A stretch of DNA of 64,000 nucleotides from Opitutales bacterium (GTDB lineage: Bacteria > Verrucomicrobiota > Verrucomicrobiia > Opitutales > Oceanipulchritudinaceae): contig JAFIGH010000011.1 of assembly GCA_020831525.1 (NCBI GenBank), positions 1-64,000 of the forward strand. Reading direction: 5' to 3'. The translations under genes and the position numbers were made by a program. Positions within the stretch are counted from its first letter, which is position 1; each line of letters opens with the position of its first letter. This document shows positions 17,840 to 55,862 of this stretch, piece by piece. The notes below the pieces were generated by a model, which saw nothing but the letters and a program-made list of their open reading frames with translations, ran no database searches and was not told where the DNA came from.

Positions 17840-18304
17840 CTACGCGTCCGTCTGCCCGCACCTGGCGCAGACGCCGTGGAGTTCGAGCGTGTGGGTGACA
17901 TCGCTGTAGCCCTGCTCGCGGGCGAGGCGCTCGAAGCGGTCGCCGTCGCAGTCCTCGATCACCTTGGCCTCGTGGCAGACCCGGCAGATAACAAGGTGGT
18001 AGTGCCGGTGGTGCGGGGAAAGGTGGAAGAGCGCCTTGCCGTTCTCGGCATGGGCACGCAGGACAAGCCCCGCCCGCTCAAAGGCATCGAGGTTGCGGTA
18101 GACGGTAACGAGGTCCTCGCCCTCGCCGATGCCTTCGCGCAGTTCCTCGGCGGAACGCGGCGTCGCGGTGTCGAGGAGCGCGTCGAGCAGGACGCGGCGC
18201 GGGCGCGTGATCCGCATCCCGCGTGCTTTCAGGGCCTCAAGGGCCTGCGAGAGCCGTTCCTTCCGCGGGACCGGTTCGCTCCGATGGTGTTCACAAGTGT
18301 CCAC
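17840..18304 (-). CDS. Fur-family metal-responsive regulator
   Basis: A 154-residue Fur/Zur/PerR-type repressor. The winged helix is at residues about 15-85 (RGMRITRPRRVLLDAL, EDLVTVYRNLDAFERAGLV). The dimerisation domain has a histidine-rich HHRHYHLVICRVCH segment and a second CxxC in CARCGQ, giving the paired CxxC structural zinc site. The start is GTG at 18302-18304, because the only later methionine would cut the winged helix. Which metal it senses cannot be read directly; the neighbouring choice-of-anchor M genes make zinc or manganese plausible. Confidence 0.85.
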   Translation of the reverse strand: MDTCEHHRSEPVPRKERLSQALEALKARGMRITRPRRVLLDALLDTATPRSAEELREGIGEGEDLVTVYRNLDAFERAGLVLRAHAENGKALFHLSPHHRHYHLVICRVCHEAKVIEDCDGDRFERLAREQGYSDVTHTLELHGVCARCGQTDA

Positions 18305-18366
18305 AATACTTCCGGACTTCCATCCACGTCCACGCGCCGGATGGTGTCAACCCAAGCGCATGCTCT

Positions 18367-19527
18367 TCAGTCCTCTTCCTGGCCGACCGTCAGGCGCAGG
18401 AACAAGCGCGGCGCCGCCGGCACCGATACTGTGACCATGCGGACTCCGGATGAAGAGGCGGACTCCGCCACGGTCACCTCCCCGTCTGCGACGGTCCACG
18501 CCTCCGTGCCCGTCACGCGCGCAATCTCCTCCCACCCGCCGAAATCGGCGGAGCGCTCCACACGAAGGACACTCCCACCCAAATCACCGCGGCGCGCAAA
18601 GTCGGACTGCACCTGCCCGTCCACAATGTGGAGGGCGGGAGTCACCGACGCCGGAGACGCACCCGGCTCTTCTCCGGCGGCAAAGGCAAGGAGGTTGGCC
18701 ACGCCCGATCCGAAGGGATCGGCGCCGGGTTCCGCCCGGCCCGCCGCACGGTCCTCCGGCGGGAAGCGCAGGGCCGCCCACTCACGGTAGCGGGAGGGAT
18801 CCGGCGCCGTGCCAACAACGAAGACAAGCGTCGCGACCTCGCTCTCACTCGTTGATCCGTCGTCAAGAACGGTCGACGCTCGCACATCCAGCTCATAGAC
18901 ACCCGGCGCACTGAAGCCCCACGCCATGTGATTGTGCGAACCCGCCGACATGAGGTATCGGTTGCCCGCCGGATGCGGCTGCGCCGTGGACCAAAAGACC
19001 ACTGGCGGACCGCCGAAGGAATCCAGCACCCACATGGCAACATGCCCCGTGCCTTCGCCCGTGAAGCGCATGTCCACCAGATCAACCGCGATCCAGCGCA
19101 CCGGCTGCGACGTGCGCCGGGGATCCCCGGCGTCCCACGGCGCGAGCGCTGCGGACTCCGTGTGTTCCGCCGCGAAGCCCGGCCACAGAATCCCCGTCCG
19201 TTCACTCGACGGCAGAAACCAGAACAGCTCGCCTGCCTCCACCCCGAGAAAGGACCACGTTTCGTCCTCCGGCCGTACAAGCCGCGACCCCTCCTCCGGG
19301 AACACTCCGTCGCGGACAAAGAGCAGCCCTTCGTCAAGCGGACGGTCGCCCTTGCCCTCGTGCCGGTGGCGCAGCGTCCAGCCCGCCTCCGCCGTGTAGT
19401 CAAAGTCGATGTCGAGATGGCCCTGCCCCATCACCAACCGGCCCGCCGCCTCACCCTCCGCCGCTACCGCGGACACAGCGGGAATCCACAGACAAACGAA
19501 AATCGATTTCCAAGATTTCATAATCAT
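18367..19527 (-). CDS. secreted choice-of-anchor M-like protein
   Basis: A 386-residue exported protein with a signal peptide (residues about 1-22). Residues about 30-235 match the layout of the choice-of-anchor M domain, notably SAGSHNHMAWGFSAPG, where two close histidines precede the GVYELDVRAS strand. The C-terminal part (VLRVERSADFGGWEEIARV, ending FLRLTV) resembles a C-terminal domain common in verrucomicrobial secreted proteins. The ATG has a good GGAAGGAG ribosome site. It follows the SpeE-like gene by 21 bases, so they are co-transcribed. In Actinobacteria this domain family associates with metal-type ABC transporters; a metal-related surface role here is inferred. Confidence 0.7.
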   Translation of the reverse strand: MIMKSWKSIFVCLWIPAVSAVAAEGEAAGRLVMGQGHLDIDFDYTAEAGWTLRHRHEGKGDRPLDEGLLFVRDGVFPEEGSRLVRPEDETWSFLGVEAGELFWFLPSSERTGILWPGFAAEHTESAALAPWDAGDPRRTSQPVRWIAVDLVDMRFTGEGTGHVAMWVLDSFGGPPVVFWSTAQPHPAGNRYLMSAGSHNHMAWGFSAPGVYELDVRASTVLDDGSTSESEVATLVFVVGTAPDPSRYREWAALRFPPEDRAAGRAEPGADPFGSGVANLLAFAAGEEPGASPASVTPALHIVDGQVQSDFARRGDLGGSVLRVERSADFGGWEEIARVTGTEAWTVADGEVTVAESASSSGVRMVTVSVPAAPRLFLRLTVGQEED

Positions 19528-19548
19528 CGTCGCTCCTTCCTAAAATCT

Positions 19549-22035
19549 TCAATGATAGCGCGGGTCCGGACCGGGCCAGCGCCGCCAGTCCGCGCCGGAA
19601 TCAAGCAGAAGCGCCTCGGGCAGCCACTCGCGCATGGAGCGCCCGCCGCCCGTCCCCGTTCGCACCCGCAGGGAGGCGCGCGCAATCCGTTCGGCGGCAT
19701 TGGGAAGACCGCCGCCGTCCCGCGGTTGCGCCGCGGAAGCCGCCAGTTCACCGCGCAGTTCCAGCCACTCCGTGCCCGCGAGGTACGGCGCGCCGCCACC
19801 GACGCGCCGCCGCGCGGCTTCCAGCTCAAGGCGCATGTTGTTGAGGGTGTTCGGCACCACATCCGGCTTTGTCTCCGGGCGACCGAGGTAGAGCAGGGCC
19901 AGCCCCTCTGCGTGCCGCAGCACGGGGTCGGCGAGCGACGCACGGGCTCCGGCGGTGCGCGCGCGCACCACTTCCCAGTCCAGTCCGCCGCCATTCCAGC
20001 CAACGAGCGCCAGCAGCGGCGTGTGCGGCTCGAAACCCGCCGTGAACACATCGTGCTCCCCGAAGACCTCTGCAAAGGCCGCCCGTATGGCGGCGAAATG
20101 ACCGCGCGTGAGCTGATGCATGGGCAGCCATTGCACGAAAACCCCGCCCGGCCGCAGCGCCGCCCGACAGTGGGCGAAGTGCTCCACCGCGTAAAGGCGT
20201 CCCTCCCCCGGCCCCCACGGCAGAAAAAGATCACCCGTCAGAACGTCAAAAGTCCCGCTGTGCGCGGCGGCGAAAACCCGACCGTCCTCCAGCCACAGGC
20301 GCACGCGCGGATCGGCGTGCAGCCCGCCGTTGAACTCCGCGAACCAGTCTTCCGCCGCCCGCGCCACACTCCGCGACAGTTCCGCCACTTCGATCCGCTC
20401 CACCCCTTCGTGCCGCAGTGCGGCGGAGGGTGTGATGCCCGTGGCCATGCCGATATATCCCACGCGCCGCGGCGCGGGGTGCAGGAGGAGCGGCAGGTGG
20501 CCGAGACGCTCCTGCTCGTAGCGCGCCGCCGTGCTCCCGAGCATGTATTGGTTTTGCAGGAGCATCGCACGGCCCATCGCCGGACTCTCGATAACGGCAA
20601 GGCTTCCCTCCCGACCCGCTTCGGCATGCAGCACGCGCACAGGCATACTGGGATTCACCGAGGGCAGACCGGAAACCGGTGCAAAGGCCAGAAGCGCCGC
20701 CGCCGCGGACGCCAGCGCAAACCCCGCCCCGGCCCGCGAGCGCACCCGCGCCGCCGCCGCGAGCGCGAGCACGGCGTAGACTGCGGCACAAGCAGCGACC
20801 GTGCCGTAAATACCCGCGGCGGGCATCAAAAACCGGTAGGCGAACTCGGCCCCGAGGAAGCCGCCGAGACCGTTCGCCGCGAGGATCCAGCCCCACCCAT
20901 GCCCGCGTTCGTCCGCCGCGCCTTCACCGTGCGCCGCGAAAACGGCGGGCAGAACGACCCCGGAAAAGAGAAACACCGGACCGAGCACAAGGAGCGAAAC
21001 CCCGGCGAGGGCGGCGAAGAACGCGGGCACGCCGCCGGCTTCAAAGAGGTTGAGTCCAAAGCGGGCCAAAACATGAAAGACCGCCGGTGCCAGCAGGGTC
21101 GCCAGCGCCGAAGCACCGAGCGCGAAGGGCAGCAACGGGGCCGGTCCGCCTGCGGCGCGGAGGAGGCGCGGTGTCGCAAGGGCGGAAAGTCCGAGACAGA
21201 GGATCACGGTCATGAGCATCCCCGCCGCCGCATAGAGCGACAGCGGTGCAGCAAGCAGGAGCATCTGCAGAAACGCCAGCTCCGAAGCGAGGACAAGAAA
21301 CCCCGAGGCAAAAGCAAGGAGCGCCACCCATGCCGAGATCAAGCGCCGCTCGGGAACCGGCGTGGGCACCTCCGCTCCGGGTCCCGCCCCGAAACGCGCG
21401 TGCGCCGCAAAACATCCCCCCGCCACCGCCGCGTTGATCGCAAGTATGGCCCACATCGCACCCATCGCTCCTAGCGCGGGCTGCGCCCACAGCAGGACCG
21501 CCGCCATGCCCGCAACGCCGCCGAGCGTGTTGAGCGCATAGAGCCAAAGGCCGTCGCGCCCGAGCCGGCGACGCTCCCCGAACACAGCCCGGCCCGCCAA
21601 AGGCAGGAACACCCCCATGAGAACCGCCGGCGGCGTCAGGGTGAGGAGCGAGAGCCCGAGTTTCACCCACGCCACCCGCCCGCTCTCCAATGCCTCCGGC
21701 CCAAGCGCCGTCCACAGGCCCGATGTCCAGAACGGCAGAAACACCACCGGAAGGCAAAGCGCGGCCACCCCCGCCTCCGCCAAGCCGAGCGTCAGCCACG
21801 GACGCCGCACCCGCCGCGCCAGCCACGCACCAAGGCCCGAGCCCAGCGCAAGGCCGAGAAAGAAACACGCGAACACCCGCGCCGCCGACTCCGTCCCCGC
21901 CCCGAGAAGATCGACCGTGCGCCGCGTCCAAAGCAACTGGTGGCCGAGCGCCGCCGCCCCGCTGCCCGCCCCGAGCGCGCACGCCCACGCGAACGCTCCG
22001 CCCGCCGCCGTCGGTTGTCCTTCATCCCCGTCCAT
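19549..22035 (-). CDS. membrane-fused spermidine-synthase-like protein
   Basis: An 828-residue protein. The N-terminal 400 or so residues form many hydrophobic segments like a fused MFS/SpeE membrane part. The C-terminal half is a Rossmann methyltransferase-like spermine/spermidine synthase fold (RRVGYIGMATGITPSAAL, RIEVAELSRSVARAA, FDVLTGDLFLPW). The enzymatic product is unknown; such fusions are widespread and their substrate is rarely shown. The ATG at 22033-22035 starts the frame. Its ribosome site is better placed for a 7-codon overlapping mini-frame. It is followed by the choice-of-anchor M gene. Confidence 0.75.
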   Translation of the reverse strand: MDGDEGQPTAAGGAFAWACALGAGSGAAALGHQLLWTRRTVDLLGAGTESAARVFACFFLGLALGSGLGAWLARRVRRPWLTLGLAEAGVAALCLPVVFLPFWTSGLWTALGPEALESGRVAWVKLGLSLLTLTPPAVLMGVFLPLAGRAVFGERRRLGRDGLWLYALNTLGGVAGMAAVLLWAQPALGAMGAMWAILAINAAVAGGCFAAHARFGAGPGAEVPTPVPERRLISAWVALLAFASGFLVLASELAFLQMLLLAAPLSLYAAAGMLMTVILCLGLSALATPRLLRAAGGPAPLLPFALGASALATLLAPAVFHVLARFGLNLFEAGGVPAFFAALAGVSLLVLGPVFLFSGVVLPAVFAAHGEGAADERGHGWGWILAANGLGGFLGAEFAYRFLMPAAGIYGTVAACAAVYAVLALAAAARVRSRAGAGFALASAAAALLAFAPVSGLPSVNPSMPVRVLHAEAGREGSLAVIESPAMGRAMLLQNQYMLGSTAARYEQERLGHLPLLLHPAPRRVGYIGMATGITPSAALRHEGVERIEVAELSRSVARAAEDWFAEFNGGLHADPRVRLWLEDGRVFAAAHSGTFDVLTGDLFLPWGPGEGRLYAVEHFAHCRAALRPGGVFVQWLPMHQLTRGHFAAIRAAFAEVFGEHDVFTAGFEPHTPLLALVGWNGGGLDWEVVRARTAGARASLADPVLRHAEGLALLYLGRPETKPDVVPNTLNNMRLELEAARRRVGGGAPYLAGTEWLELRGELAASAAQPRDGGGLPNAAERIARASLRVRTGTGGGRSMREWLPEALLLDSGADWRRWPGPDPRYH

Positions 22036-22064
22036 CGCCGCGCATCCGACTATCCTCCTTAATC

Positions 22065-22118
22065 AATTGCAAGAAACTTGCAATTAGAGTTTGACCCATA
22101 ACGCAAACCACTTGCAAT
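22065..22118. promoter_or_regulatory. palindromic operator candidate in a divergent promoter region
   Basis: AATTGCAAG at 22065-22073 and CTTGCAATT at 22077-22085 form perfect 9-base inverted arms around AAA. A third half-site, CTTGCAAT, lies at 22111-22118. Between them TTGACC at 22091-22096 could be a rightward -35, which would place the third half-site over the -10. The site sits between the leftward SpeE-like gene and the rightward PEP-CTERM gene. Its length suits a Fur-family dimer, but the binding protein is not known. Confidence 0.55.
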
Positions 22119-22192
22119 AACGAACCCGAATTCGGGCACCGGCACCGCCGGACACCCGCACAAACGACAAATCACCAAACTCGAAAAATAAC

Positions 22193-22996
22193 ATGCACAA
22201 AGCTATCCTACGCCACACCGCAGCGCTTCCAGCCGTCATCAGTCTGGGCGCCGCCGCCCTCGCCGCACCGGTCGCGGCGCAGTCCATCGCCTTCTCTGAA
22301 GGCGCCGCCGACATCACGTTCTTTTATAGCAGCGCCAACAACTCATGGGATGTTGTCTTCCGCGAAAAGGGAAACACCGTCGCCACCGGGCTCACCACGC
22401 CCTACGGCACGCCTCCCGGCGGCGTCGGCGGATCCACCGGCGACCACAACTTCACAGAACTCAACGTGCTGGTGAGCGATGCTCCCGCGATTTCGGTCAA
22501 CGGCATCAGCTACTTCGTCACACCGGCCGCGGACACGACCTACAACACCGACACCCAGCCCGACCTCGGATTCCGCACCCGCCTCAAAGAGGTCGACAAC
22601 GGCAATGAGGTCGACCAGTTCGACAACCTCCGCGCGACACTCAACCCAACGGAGTCGACCATGCCGACGGACGCGGAATTCATCCTCTTCCGGGCGGGCA
22701 ATCCGCTCGAAGGCGAACCGGAGACGATCATCCTCTACGAGACCAATGCCGGCGATTTGGTCCACGACTGGCCCGCGTGGGGACACACCCACTGGCACTG
22801 GGGCTTCTCCGAGCAGGGTGAATACTCCCTCCTCTTCGATTTCCAAGGTATCGGCGGCCTCCACGGACCGTCTTCCACCGACAGCGTGCGGGTGAACTTC
22901 TCCGTCATCCCCGAGCCAGGCACTTTCGCCGCCGCCTTCGGCCTCGTCGCCCTCGGCATTGTCTTCTTCCGCCGCCGTCGCGGACAAGAATCCTGA
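22193..22996 (+). CDS. PEP-CTERM protein with choice-of-anchor M-like domain
   Basis: A 267-residue exported protein. A signal peptide spans about residues 1-30. The middle domain parallels the protein encoded at 18367-19527 and carries the histidine-rich WGHTHWHWGFSEQGEYSL segment, an HxHxH-type pattern that could bind metal. The C-terminus is a PEP-CTERM sorting tail (VIPEPG, a hydrophobic helix, then RRRR), so it should be processed by the exosortase encoded at 54195-55862. Divergent from the SpeE-like gene across the palindrome and followed by a terminator. Confidence 0.82.
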   Translation: MHKAILRHTAALPAVISLGAAALAAPVAAQSIAFSEGAADITFFYSSANNSWDVVFREKGNTVATGLTTPYGTPPGGVGGSTGDHNFTELNVLVSDAPAISVNGISYFVTPAADTTYNTDTQPDLGFRTRLKEVDNGNEVDQFDNLRATLNPTESTMPTDAEFILFRAGNPLEGEPETIILYETNAGDLVHDWPAWGHTHWHWGFSEQGEYSLLFDFQGIGGLHGPSSTDSVRVNFSVIPEPGTFAAAFGLVALGIVFFRRRRGQES

Positions 22997-23027: not shown

Positions 23028-23059
23028 ACAGGCCGCTCCCCGCCGGGAGCGGCCTTTTT
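23028..23059 (+). terminator. intrinsic terminator after the PEP-CTERM gene
   Basis: GGCCGCTCCC at 23031-23040 pairs with GGGAGCGGCC at 23045-23054 around a CGCC loop, followed by five T. It lies about 35 bases after the stop codon. Confidence 0.9.
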
Positions 23060-52108: not shown

Positions 52109-54208
52109 ATGAAGAAACCATACCTCTTCTTCCCCGTCGGGGCGGTGGTGCTGCTCGTCGGTGCCGCGGTGCTCTACCTCATTATCCAAAGGGAGGATGG
52201 GGACAACCTCCGGACGATCACAAGACATGCGGCGGACGGTGAAACAGAGCGGGCGGTCCGCGAACTGGAGGCGCTCCTCGCGCGCGGCGGCGGAGATTTT
52301 GCCACCACCGTGGGAGCGGCGAAACTCGCGCTGGGTGTCTCGCCGACTCATTTTGACGAATTCTTCCGCCTCGCCTTGCGGCGCGACGACCGCGAGAGCG
52401 ACGGTCTGCTTGACTTAACGGAAGCGGCGGTCGAAGCAGGCGAAACCGAGGCGGCCCGCCGTTTGCTTGAAGAATCGCTGCGCCTCGATGCGGGAGATCC
52501 CCGGGCATTCCTCCTCGCGGGACGGTTCAACCACGCGACCGGCAACCACGCCGAAGCGATTATGTTCTATGAAAACGCCTTCCTTCGGACCACTCCCGAT
52601 CCAGTCGACGAGGTGCGTTTCGCGCGGTCGCTCTCGTTCACGGGCGATCCGGCAAAAATCGTGCGTGCGAAGGACATCCTCCACCGCGTCAGCGAAGGGT
52701 CGGACGCGGCGGCGATGGACGCCCTCATTTCCATCGGTGCCCTCAATCATATTCCGCTGCCCGAAGCGGAGATCGCACCCTATCTCGAGCGATTCCGCAA
52801 CCACCCGGATTTCCCCGACGCACTGGAAGGACGAATCGAGGTGATCCGTCGCTTGATCGGTCGCTTCGAACGATTCGACGTAAGCTTCGCACTTGACTTG
52901 GGCCGAGTTCTGATGCGCGGCGAGGACCTCACCGTCCGGGACCGCCTCTCCTTCGCCTTCATGGCCCTGAAGGAAGGTGCAACCGACGCAGCCGAGCGGG
53001 CTCTCGCCCATTTTGAGGGACTGGACCGCGAAGGCGCTGAGTACCAGGCGCTGTCCGCCTACCTTGCGATGCTCCAAGGCCGGACAGCGGATGGCCTCGA
53101 ACGCCTCGCCTCCCTGCAGCGCTCCCATCCCTCCGACCCCGCGCTCGTCCTCATCACGGAAGCCGCACTTTTCTACAACCGCCCGGACCTTGTCCACTCC
53201 GAAACCAGTGAGCTTGCGCGCCTCCTTCTCGATCATCCTCTCGCTTCGCCCGCTTTGCAACTGCGCGGCTACTCACTCCTCATAGACCTGCGTCCGGTTC
53301 AGGCGGACCGCGTTCTCGGCGAAGCCGTCGAGCGGTACAAGGAGAATGCCCTCGGGACGCTCGTCCTGTGGCTGCGGGAGCGGGGCGAGTCCCGCATCAT
53401 CGAGCGGATCACACGTGATGTCGAGGACGCCCCGGACCGTCGGATCATCCTCGGCATCCGGCTCGACGCGCTCCTCGACCTCGGAGAAACCGAGCAACTG
53501 CGCACCGAACTGGAGCGTCACGGCGATGAGGTCGCAAGAGGCACACGGCACATCCTCGAGGCCGAACTGGCGTTCCGCGGTGAATCACCCGACGCGGCAT
53601 GGCGCCACTGGGAGATCGCCTATGAGCATGCCCTTGCGAGAGGCCAGTTTTTCGCCCTTCGACGACTCGCCGCCATCGGCGGCCGCGAAGGCGATCTCAA
53701 TCGTTCCCACCGCGCCTACCGCCGGATCTTTCTCGACGGCGGCGGACTTTCCATTGAAGAGCACCGTGCTTTTCTCGCCCTTTCGCTCCAGCGGGACGAA
53801 ATCGGCGATTCCATTCGTGTCGCCCGCGCTCTCGCGGAACGAAGCGGTGCCTCGGCTCCGGATATCAACAATGCGGCTTACCTGAGTTTCCTCATTGATG
53901 ACGCATCGGAGGATTGGGTCGACCGGATGCGCGGTCTTGTCCGGGACAATCCCGACGAGGCGACGTTCCGGCTCACCTACGCACTTGGATTGCTGCGGAC
54001 CGGTCGGGAGCGGGAAGCGCTCGGCATCGCTGAGGACACACGAATCGACATGACTGCGGAAGGTTCACAGAGCCAGGCGATTTACGCCAAGATTCTCGCG
54101 GCAAACAACCGCAACGCGCTCGCCTCAAGTATTGTGGCGAACATCGACAAAACACGCCTTCTACCGGCTGAACAAGGGCTGATCGCCGATCTGGATGGCC
54201 GACGGTAA
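52109..54208 (+). CDS. membrane-anchored helical-repeat (TPR-like) protein
   Basis: A 699-residue protein with one N-terminal membrane segment (residues about 5-26) and the rest a long alpha-helical solenoid with TPR-like pairs (ARRLLEESLRLDAGDPRAFL, NHAEAIMFYENAFLR). It overlaps the exosortase gene by 14 bases, so it is likely co-translated and may act with sorting or export. No enzyme motif seen. An inverted repeat near 52055-52080 precedes it. Confidence 0.7.
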   Translation: MKKPYLFFPVGAVVLLVGAAVLYLIIQREDGDNLRTITRHAADGETERAVRELEALLARGGGDFATTVGAAKLALGVSPTHFDEFFRLALRRDDRESDGLLDLTEAAVEAGETEAARRLLEESLRLDAGDPRAFLLAGRFNHATGNHAEAIMFYENAFLRTTPDPVDEVRFARSLSFTGDPAKIVRAKDILHRVSEGSDAAAMDALISIGALNHIPLPEAEIAPYLERFRNHPDFPDALEGRIEVIRRLIGRFERFDVSFALDLGRVLMRGEDLTVRDRLSFAFMALKEGATDAAERALAHFEGLDREGAEYQALSAYLAMLQGRTADGLERLASLQRSHPSDPALVLITEAALFYNRPDLVHSETSELARLLLDHPLASPALQLRGYSLLIDLRPVQADRVLGEAVERYKENALGTLVLWLRERGESRIIERITRDVEDAPDRRIILGIRLDALLDLGETEQLRTELERHGDEVARGTRHILEAELAFRGESPDAAWRHWEIAYEHALARGQFFALRRLAAIGGREGDLNRSHRAYRRIFLDGGGLSIEEHRAFLALSLQRDEIGDSIRVARALAERSGASAPDINNAAYLSFLIDDASEDWVDRMRGLVRDNPDEATFRLTYALGLLRTGREREALGIAEDTRIDMTAEGSQSQAIYAKILAANNRNALASSIVANIDKTRLLPAEQGLIADLDGRR

Positions 54209-55862
54209 GCCAACACTCGATGCCGCGGGCTCGATCCAAGGAGATCTGCCCGCAAACCTCCTTTCCCCGGTGCGGTTTCTTGTCGGAGCGACCGTCCTCG
54301 CGGCGCTGGTCGTCCTATCGCAGGTGCGTCTGCACTGGGGCGGTGAATCCTATTACAATTACGGTTGGTTCGTGCCCTTCCTCGCCGCCTACCTGTTTGT
54401 CCGGCGCATGGCCGACCAACCCGCGCCCGCTCCCCCGCCCCGGCGCATTCAGGGATGTATCGTCGCAGCCGGAGCCCTCCTGATCGTCGCCCTGCTGCCG
54501 TTCCAACTGCTCAACGAGGTGAATCCCTTTTGGCGCGCACCGTTGATCCTGCAGGCGGGCCTCGTATTGCTCTTGGGCATGGCCACGCTCTACATGATCG
54601 GAGGTCTTCGCACACTCCGCCACTTTGCGTTTCCGGCCGTCTTTTGCCTGACCATGATCCCCATACCGTGGCGCATCGAGACGGAGATCATTCAACTGCT
54701 CACCCGCCAAGTCGTGGAAGCGACCGTCTTTCTGCTCCAGGCGTCCGGGTACACGGCCGAGGTCCGCGGAAACCTTGTCGTCGTGAATGGCAGCAGCGTC
54801 GGGGTCGACGACGCCTGCAGCGGCATCCGCTCACTCCAGGTGCTGGGGATGATTACGCTCTTTCTGAGCGACTATTTCCGCATGCCGTGGACACGGCGCC
54901 CGCTGCTCTTCGCGGCGGCCTTCGTCGCCATTATGTTTTTCAACACCACCCGCTCGATCACCCTCACCCTCGTCGTCGTGCACGGGGGCACGGCATGGTA
55001 CGACCGGTTGCACGATTGGATCGGCATCCTGACTTTCGGAGGCTGCATCGCTTTGTTGTACGGTCTTTGCGAGTGGATTCGTCCCCGCGGCGCGGGCCCG
55101 CCCGAAGGGGCTTCCGCCGGGAAGGAGTCGGTGGGTCCGGCCCCGGAATCACCTGCGCATGCGCGCGTGTGGTACGTCGGCGCAGCGGTCTGGGCACTGA
55201 CGGCAGCAACCGTTTTCGCGGGGAAAGAGGCATGGTTCCTTTATCACGAAGAACGGGAGCGCCCGCAATACACGTGGACGGTGCAGTGGCCGGAGCGGGA
55301 CCGACTGAACTACCGCTTTGCCGACATCTCCGATCAGATCAAGGAAATCCTCACCTTCGACTACGGAGAACGCATCCACGGGATTCTTCCCCGGGGTGAG
55401 TACATCGACCTCTATTTTTACGGCTACACCGGCGAGAACCGCATGCGCGCCGTCACCTCGTATGGACACCAGCCGACCGTTTGCATGACAGCGATCGGCG
55501 CCCGCCTCGTCGCCGAACACGAGCCCGTGCGCTTCGAGCGTAACGGACTCCAGCTCACGATGAATCACTTTAAGTTTCTCCTCCCTGATCCGGGTACCGG
55601 TACACGCGAAGAAATGGATGTCTTCTGGACCGTCTGGGAGCGCCGCAACATGGGCCTCGATCCGCTCCGAATGGAGACCATTACATGGGCCAACCAAACC
55701 GACCTCGCCCTGCGCGGGCGGCGCGACTATTACCGCAAGATCCTCCTCGTCGGCATGACCAACGCGGACTCCAAGGCCAGCGCCCGCCGCTCCCTCGTTT
55801 CTCTCCTTGAGGAAATCGTAAAGGTGCAACCGCTTGACGACAACAGCGGTCGCGCAGACTAG
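54195..55862 (+). CDS. xrt: exosortase with fused EpsI-like C-terminal domain
   Basis: A 555-residue membrane protease-transpeptidase. The N-terminal 300 residues have about eight hydrophobic segments and the exosortase triad: C208 in DDACSGIRSLQ, R253 in FNTTRSITL and H273 in DRLHDWIG. The C-terminal 200 residues form a soluble EpsI-like domain (YIDLYFYGYTGENRM). It cuts PEP-CTERM tails and links proteins to a surface glycan or lipid. At least five PEP-CTERM proteins are encoded in this window. It overlaps the upstream helical-repeat gene. Confidence 0.9.
   Translation: MADGKPTLDAAGSIQGDLPANLLSPVRFLVGATVLAALVVLSQVRLHWGGESYYNYGWFVPFLAAYLFVRRMADQPAPAPPPRRIQGCIVAAGALLIVALLPFQLLNEVNPFWRAPLILQAGLVLLLGMATLYMIGGLRTLRHFAFPAVFCLTMIPIPWRIETEIIQLLTRQVVEATVFLLQASGYTAEVRGNLVVVNGSSVGVDDACSGIRSLQVLGMITLFLSDYFRMPWTRRPLLFAAAFVAIMFFNTTRSITLTLVVVHGGTAWYDRLHDWIGILTFGGCIALLYGLCEWIRPRGAGPPEGASAGKESVGPAPESPAHARVWYVGAAVWALTAATVFAGKEAWFLYHEERERPQYTWTVQWPERDRLNYRFADISDQIKEILTFDYGERIHGILPRGEYIDLYFYGYTGENRMRAVTSYGHQPTVCMTAIGARLVAEHEPVRFERNGLQLTMNHFKFLLPDPGTGTREEMDVFWTVWERRNMGLDPLRMETITWANQTDLALRGRRDYYRKILLVGMTNADSKASARRSLVSLLEEIVKVQPLDDNSGRAD

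Follow-up and report, generated by a model that had tools for sequence, protein, structure and literature searches.

A putative zinc-starvation locus encoding choice-of-anchor M surface proteins in an Opitutales bacterium

Analysis of a 64,000-nucleotide stretch of DNA from an Opitutales bacterium (hereafter the window) revealed a four-gene locus that, judging from its sequence, is highly likely to be a zinc-starvation locus under a Zur-like repressor of the Fur family, with exported proteins predicted to capture zinc at the cell envelope. The first-pass annotation had placed a Fur-family regulator, two choice-of-anchor M (CAM)-like exported proteins and a membrane SpeE-like protein together in a surface metal-handling locus of an exosortase organism. 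All four genes were confirmed at their positions, and the surface metal-handling reading gained support, with the metal now named as zinc through the operator and the zinc genes linked to it. The genes, their shared operator box, the content of the regulon and the conserved residues are supported computationally. The features are as follows.

17840–18304, minus strand: P0001, Fur-family regulator (154 aa), last gene of the minus-strand operon (PF01475, 66 bits)
18367–19527, minus strand: P0002, exported CAM protein (386 aa) with a signal peptide, an HxD/HxH site and a C-terminal Ig-like domain
18928–18936, minus strand: HxH half of the putative zinc site of P0002 (H198-N-H200), invariant in the alignment
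19411–19419, minus strand: HxD half of the putative zinc site of P0002 (H37-L-D39), invariant in the alignment
19549–22035, minus strand: P0003, membrane protein fused to a spermidine-synthase-like domain (828 aa), first gene downstream of the box
22065–22085, no strand assigned: operator copy 1, perfect palindrome AATTGCAAG-AAA-CTTGCAATT
22098–22120, no strand assigned: operator copy 2, ATAACGCAAACCACTTGCAATAA, 34 bp from copy 1
22193–22996, plus strand: P0004, divergent CAM-like protein with a PEP-CTERM signal (267 aa) and an altered site
22784–22798, plus strand: HTHWH histidine cluster of P0004 (H198-T-H200-W-H202)
23030–23055, plus strand: hairpin resembling an intrinsic terminator after P0004 (11 pairs, T tail)
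54195–55862, plus strand: exosortase gene (PF09721, 138.5 bits at 54288–55076), candidate processor of the PEP-CTERM protein P0004

The minus-strand genes follow each other in the order P0003-P0002-P0001, with intergenic gaps of 21 and 62 bases, and are separated from P0004 by a divergent promoter region of 157 bp (22036–22192). Seven terminator-like hairpins were found, versus 6.5 in shuffles, that at 23030–23055 being the sole one with 11 pairs. The host genome (5.3 Mb, 184 contigs) carries four exosortase genes, one of them in the window.

The strongest evidence for the zinc-locus reading is the palindromic operator. Its box, with the consensus TTATTGCAA-N5-TTGCAATAA, is present in two copies in the divergent promoter; with a position weight matrix (PWM) trained without the host genome, these scored 28.1 (copy 1) and 28.0 (copy 2), versus at most 8.7 in mononucleotide shuffles of the window (n=20). 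Exact TTGCAA-N5-TTGCAA sequences occur at four places in the 5.3-Mb genome, two being CAM promoters. The sites C12:5033 and C105:5135 represent one common sequence among unrelated genes and were rejected as regulon members (the C12 copy has a PWM score of 9.8 versus 28–30 at the CAM sites). When the extended box was searched throughout the genome with up to three mismatches, three sites were found, each separating a CAM gene from its divergent partner (two CAM loci), while the reversed-pattern control gave none. The box at C116:27455 precedes the probable ATG start of the third host CAM gene (encoding CAM_C) by about 30 bases; the divergent partner of this gene encodes a TonB-dependent receptor. 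Inspection of one-mismatch sites at C57, C63 and C91 placed none of them at a CAM or zinc-uptake promoter; that at C91 falls inside a metal-type ABC ATPase gene.

The core pattern, defined from the window, was then tested in 41 CAM loci of other families. Promoter zones of the CAM-locus genes contained 31 box sites, distributed over 22 of the 41 loci, at a density 21-fold that of the remaining sequence. In the same loci, 23 control palindromes of equal composition gave 0–8 sites, the value of 8 belonging to the near-variant ATGCAT.

Genes behind the box indicate the metal. The receptor encoded beside CAM_C has the zinc receptor ZnuD (4rdr) as its best solved relative (130.6 bits; next match, 24.8). 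Away from CAM genes, the box precedes znuABC in three relatives (L149, L162 and L166), a ZigA gene whose product exceeds the equivalog cut-off (L150) and a ZIP gene (L154), and it lies by merC, fur and a ZnuD-like receptor gene in L159. The order was also scanned at up to two mismatches, and 20 boxes from genomes showing no CAM gene were picked before their surroundings were viewed, in a selection that favoured sites with fewer mismatches. In ten cases the box adjoined a ZnuD-like receptor gene directly or with a single small gene in between, and a COG0523 gene and merC accounted for one case each; for most of the remainder, no obvious zinc gene was seen at the box. Because the operator is shared and ZnuD-like receptor, ZigA, ZnuABC and ZIP genes bear it, the metal of the locus is very probably zinc.

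The regulator P0001 contains two CxxC pairs (C107/C110 and C146/C149), the structural zinc pairs expected of a Zur within the Fur family, plus C119. Its best solved relative is FurB/Zur of Mycobacterium tuberculosis (2o03), nearly tied with the Fur structure 2w57, and its match to NF006999 (Fur) is higher than that to NF008646 (Zur), both being below cut-off. The C-terminus, GYSDVTHTLELHGVCARC, matches FurB/Zur, while Ser96 aligns with the sensory cysteine of FurB, a residue characteristic of Zur proteins, not definitional for them. Since these residue-level signals were mixed, the metal was assigned through the content of the regulon; in relatives, the operator stands before zinc-uptake genes (znuABC, zigA, ZIP, znuD-like, merC). 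P0001 thus appears to be Zur-like in function, not a canonical Zur. From its place in the operon we infer that P0001 itself binds the box. In a phylogenetic tree P0001 clusters with the CAM-linked Furs from other families, and the remaining four Furs of the host fall outside this cluster (support 97/99); branching inside the CAM-linked set is mostly unresolved and includes several long branches. A cysteine in the C119 region is present in CAM-linked Furs and absent there from the other Furs of the host; it may replace the usual sensory cysteine of Zur.

Three CAM or CAM-like proteins are encoded by the host. P0002 and CAM_C exceed the cut-off of 55 of the model NF038134 (90.9 and 59.4 bits, respectively), and P0002 also matches TIGR03769 (51 bits) and, below cut-off, TIGR03772. 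With 28 bits to NF038134, P0004 was not counted as a full CAM member; it is termed CAM-like on account of its aligning H198/H200 and the GFS/GxY motif after them. An assignment of the two exported proteins of the window to unrelated families was therefore not borne out; they belong to one domain family, P0004 weakly. The close histidines that had been noticed at the same place in both do correspond (H198/H200), and in P0002 this pair partners an N-terminal HxD (H37/D39). In an alignment of 25 CAM proteins, sharing 19–33% identity with P0002 except for two close relatives (~70%), seven columns are invariant, and four of these are H37, D39, H198 and H200 (P0002 numbering). P0002 thereby shows the HxD/HxH arrangement of the Corynebacterium diphtheriae ZnuE/F/G type, with about 150 residues between the two halves. 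The first histidine, that of HxD, is missing from P0004 and its 13 orthologues. They keep D40, invariant H198/H200 and a nearly invariant H202, so the putative site seems to be changed, not lost.

P0004 has the C-terminal features of an exosortase substrate, i.e. a PEP motif (PF07589, 21.3 bits, cut-off 20.7; NCBIfam PEP_CTERM 12.9, below the cut-off of 16), a helix (243–266) and a basic RRRR tail, in a genome with exosortase. The structural models have a pLDDT of about 90 or more across most of residues 31–240 of P0002, and of 85.7 for P0004. Foldseek searches with the CAM models returned generic beta-sandwich/Ig-like matches (best TM ≤0.19 to the query). Structure comparison gave no informative fold match for P0004 (Z ≤5.9), and the matches of P0002 were confined almost entirely to its C-terminal Ig-like domain. 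Searching the sequences of solved structures with the CAM profile yielded no significant match.

CAM genes were detected in 37 of the 223 genomes searched in the order. Among 51 CAM loci sampled within it, the neighbourhood included Fur in 10, a TonB receptor in 12, a P0003-type protein in 9, MerC in 7, COG0523 in 3, ZnuA in 2 and a prepilin-like protein in about 30. The recurrent linkage of CAM and Fur genes predicted at the outset was seen across families: 0.75 Mb of CAM loci outside the genus of the window contain eight Fur genes versus 0.7 expected (Poisson 8e-7), the loci being partly non-independent, with two from one genus sharing a locus. The same partners recur in 14 CAM loci from other orders, with a TonB receptor in 4, COG0523 in 6, a P0003-type protein in 4 and a pilin in about 10. 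No metal ABC transporter adjoins the CAM genes in the window, and ZnuABC adjoins CAM in few relatives only (L081, L086 and L189).

The closest described counterparts are found in C. diphtheriae, whose HxD/HxH proteins ZnuE/F/G and CmrA/CmrA2 are zinc-regulated (PMC12445094, PMC6711530). ZnuE is required for growth in low zinc, and both ZnuE and ZnuF bind zinc, as seen from melting shifts with zinc (PMC12445094). A His-to-Ala change abolished complementation by ZnuE in growth assays, and His-to-Ala mutants still responded to or bound zinc in vitro; when znuF and znuG were deleted, a znuABC mutant regained growth, a modulating effect of an unusual kind (PMC12445094). As in the present locus, the proteins of this cluster are exported or anchored, with HxD and HxH about 150–160 residues apart, and there they are under zinc/Zur regulation. 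The C. diphtheriae ZnuA-type protein is annotated as “anchored repeat ABC transporter, substrate-binding” (TIGR03772), the model that P0002 matches below cut-off. C. diphtheriae, however, is Gram-positive, with some members sortase anchored and clustered with ZnuABC, whereas the system described here has exosortase/PEP-CTERM sorting, an outer-membrane ZnuD-like receptor, a spermidine-synthase-like membrane partner and a regulator inside the operon.

Among Gram-negative systems, neisserial ZnuD under Zur (PMC4557270, PMC2895646) is likewise a TonB-dependent receptor, and ZnuD is the clear best match of the CAM-linked receptor of the host; the latter, however, shares a divergent promoter with a CAM gene and scores far below the cut-off of the ZnuD model. 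The Zur regulon of Caulobacter crescentus, with TonB-dependent receptors (PMC4176598), also includes outer-membrane zinc uptake. The present loci are marked by CAM proteins and a TTGCAA-type box, and were set beside Caulobacter through one control genome, Caulobacter vibrioides, in which no CAM match was found. The actinobacterial anchored-repeat ABC transporters (TIGR03769/03772/03773) involve the same domain family; in Gardnerella, CAM genes are induced ~90–115 fold together with the transporter (PMC11979175). Unlike these, the window has no adjacent metal ABC transporter.

In the mechanism that we propose, P0001, probably in the form of a dimer loaded with zinc, would bind both boxes at 22065–22120 under zinc-replete conditions and shut off P0004 as well as the P0003-P0002-P0001 operon, which would thus be autoregulated. 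Zinc scarcity would release both transcription units. P0002 would be exported and bind zinc through its HxD/HxH site, and P0004 would be exported, sorted by exosortase and use the related site of D plus HxHxH; together they would scavenge zinc, or buffer it, on the outer surface or within the periplasm. Zinc would then be taken up by the ZnuD-like TonB receptor, encoded elsewhere beside the third CAM gene behind the same box. Zinc as co-repressor and zinc binding by P0002 and P0004 are thus predictions from sequence. The shared promoters prompt us to propose transfer from CAM proteins to the receptor, direct hand-over being a guess.

Several observations weigh against the favoured reading: Ser96 of P0001 in the place of the sensory cysteine, the lack of the box at both ZnuA genes of the host, the low CAM score and missing first histidine of P0004, the uninformative fold comparisons, and the position of several boxes of CAM-less genomes near genes without an evident connection to zinc. 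The zinc-capture role is made less certain by the zinc binding of C. diphtheriae His mutants in vitro and by the finding that ZnuF/ZnuG could restrain growth (PMC12445094). Instead of feeding uptake, the CAM proteins might retain zinc at the surface or in the periplasm, as buffers or modulators. This is possible, if less than probable: the regained growth of the znuABC mutant upon znuF/znuG deletion fits it, while the need for znuE, a gene of the same type, in low zinc and the promoter region shared by a host CAM gene and the ZnuD-like importer speak for capture.

A different metal would be implied if P0001 were a Fur or Mur-like protein and the CAM proteins bound iron or manganese. Fur-family subtypes are hard to read, and for P0001 the higher Fur score, the near tie with 2w57 and the missing Zur sensory cysteine all leave room for this. 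Mur boxes of alphaproteobacteria, moreover, resemble TGCAA half-sites. Yet the box-linked genes are zinc genes (ZnuD-like, ZigA equivalog, ZIP, MerC, ZnuABC), none of the boxes examined lay at a siderophore or Mn-specific gene, and the C-terminus of P0001 sides with FurB/Zur; we therefore regard an iron or manganese locus as quite improbable. More improbable still is an incidental grouping in which CAM proteins would be surface proteins of a generic kind, unconnected with metals. The family name refers to anchoring only and the matches of P0004 are weak, but linkage and box recur across families, the linkage even beyond the order, and the histidines and aspartate are invariant among CAM proteins of low identity.

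Under the favoured zinc-starvation reading, the part played by P0003 is less obvious. It matches NF037959 (44.4 bits, cut-off 40) and PF01564. Neither the GGGDG nor the DxxDP motif of SpeE (polyamine aminopropyltransferase) is present in P0003 and 10 linked relatives, which carry GxxTGI-type and DLFLPW sequences instead; the second catalytic Asp is lost and DLFLPW is invariant. P0003 is thus probably not a classical spermidine synthase, though of the same fold family. Proteins of this type are encoded in CAM loci from several families, also beyond the order. P0003 might make and export a small zinc-binding molecule (zincophore), the altered synthase-like domain performing an aminopropyl or aminocarboxypropyl transfer and the membrane part acting as exporter, with the CAM proteins and ZnuD-like receptor recapturing the zinc complex. 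We consider this unlikely, and found no link between spermidine synthase and Zur in the papers searched; if true, it would be a new route to metallophore-type zinc uptake.

The locus had been called undescribed, which applies in part: the zinc role of the domain was already published for C. diphtheriae (PMC12445094, 2025), while the searched literature gave no account of the Gram-negative version or its operator. Nor did the open-licence papers searched contain a Zur regulon of Verrucomicrobiota, or CAM proteins in one. What this analysis adds is the operator, the connection to ZnuD, sorting by exosortase, and P0003 and the pseudopilin as recurrent partners. For a surface-domain family so far annotated without explanation, zinc is thereby indicated as the likely function and TTATTGCAA-N5-TTGCAATAA as the regulatory signature, and HxD/HxH zinc proteins are extended from Actinobacteria to Gram-negative, exosortase-bearing bacteria. 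The box makes a Zur regulon of Verrucomicrobiota predictable, and links CAM proteins, the spermidine-synthase-like membrane enzyme and, by neighbourhood, the pseudopilin to zinc acquisition.

The prepilin-like protein (N_methyl) is the commonest CAM neighbour (e.g. L088:10170-10877, L094:10267-10986 and L109:13475-14293), also in most loci outside the order, and is missing from all loci in the family to which the window belongs; zinc regulation of a pseudopilin would be unusual. Sharing of the box by the host's own ZnuA genes was considered and failed: neither of the two ZnuA-type genes (L051 on C42 and L052 on C132) carries it; znuABC of relatives sits behind it. In L216 and L221, from genomes showing no CAM gene, a small gene (118–127 aa, His/Cys-bearing) separates the box from the ZnuD-like receptor gene. 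Most of the named relatives from the P0004-family search are metagenome genomes of Opitutales/Opitutia; several carry the label of a sediment isolate, and some, to judge from record labels, come from soda lakes. On host contig C91, the gene at L055:1404-2819 joins a metal-type ABC permease to a DtxR-type metal-binding domain, possibly as a manganese system, and adjoins the gene of a sulfate permease family protein. Two genomes of family f21 have an arginine decarboxylase gene directly beside the Fur gene (L105:14093-16045 and L116:6400-8382). In the same family (L109:3893-5152, L151, L156, L160 and L163), box-like sites lie near the starts of genes for a LysM-amidase and a conserved small membrane protein (~160–200 aa), which are possibly cell-wall members of the regulon.
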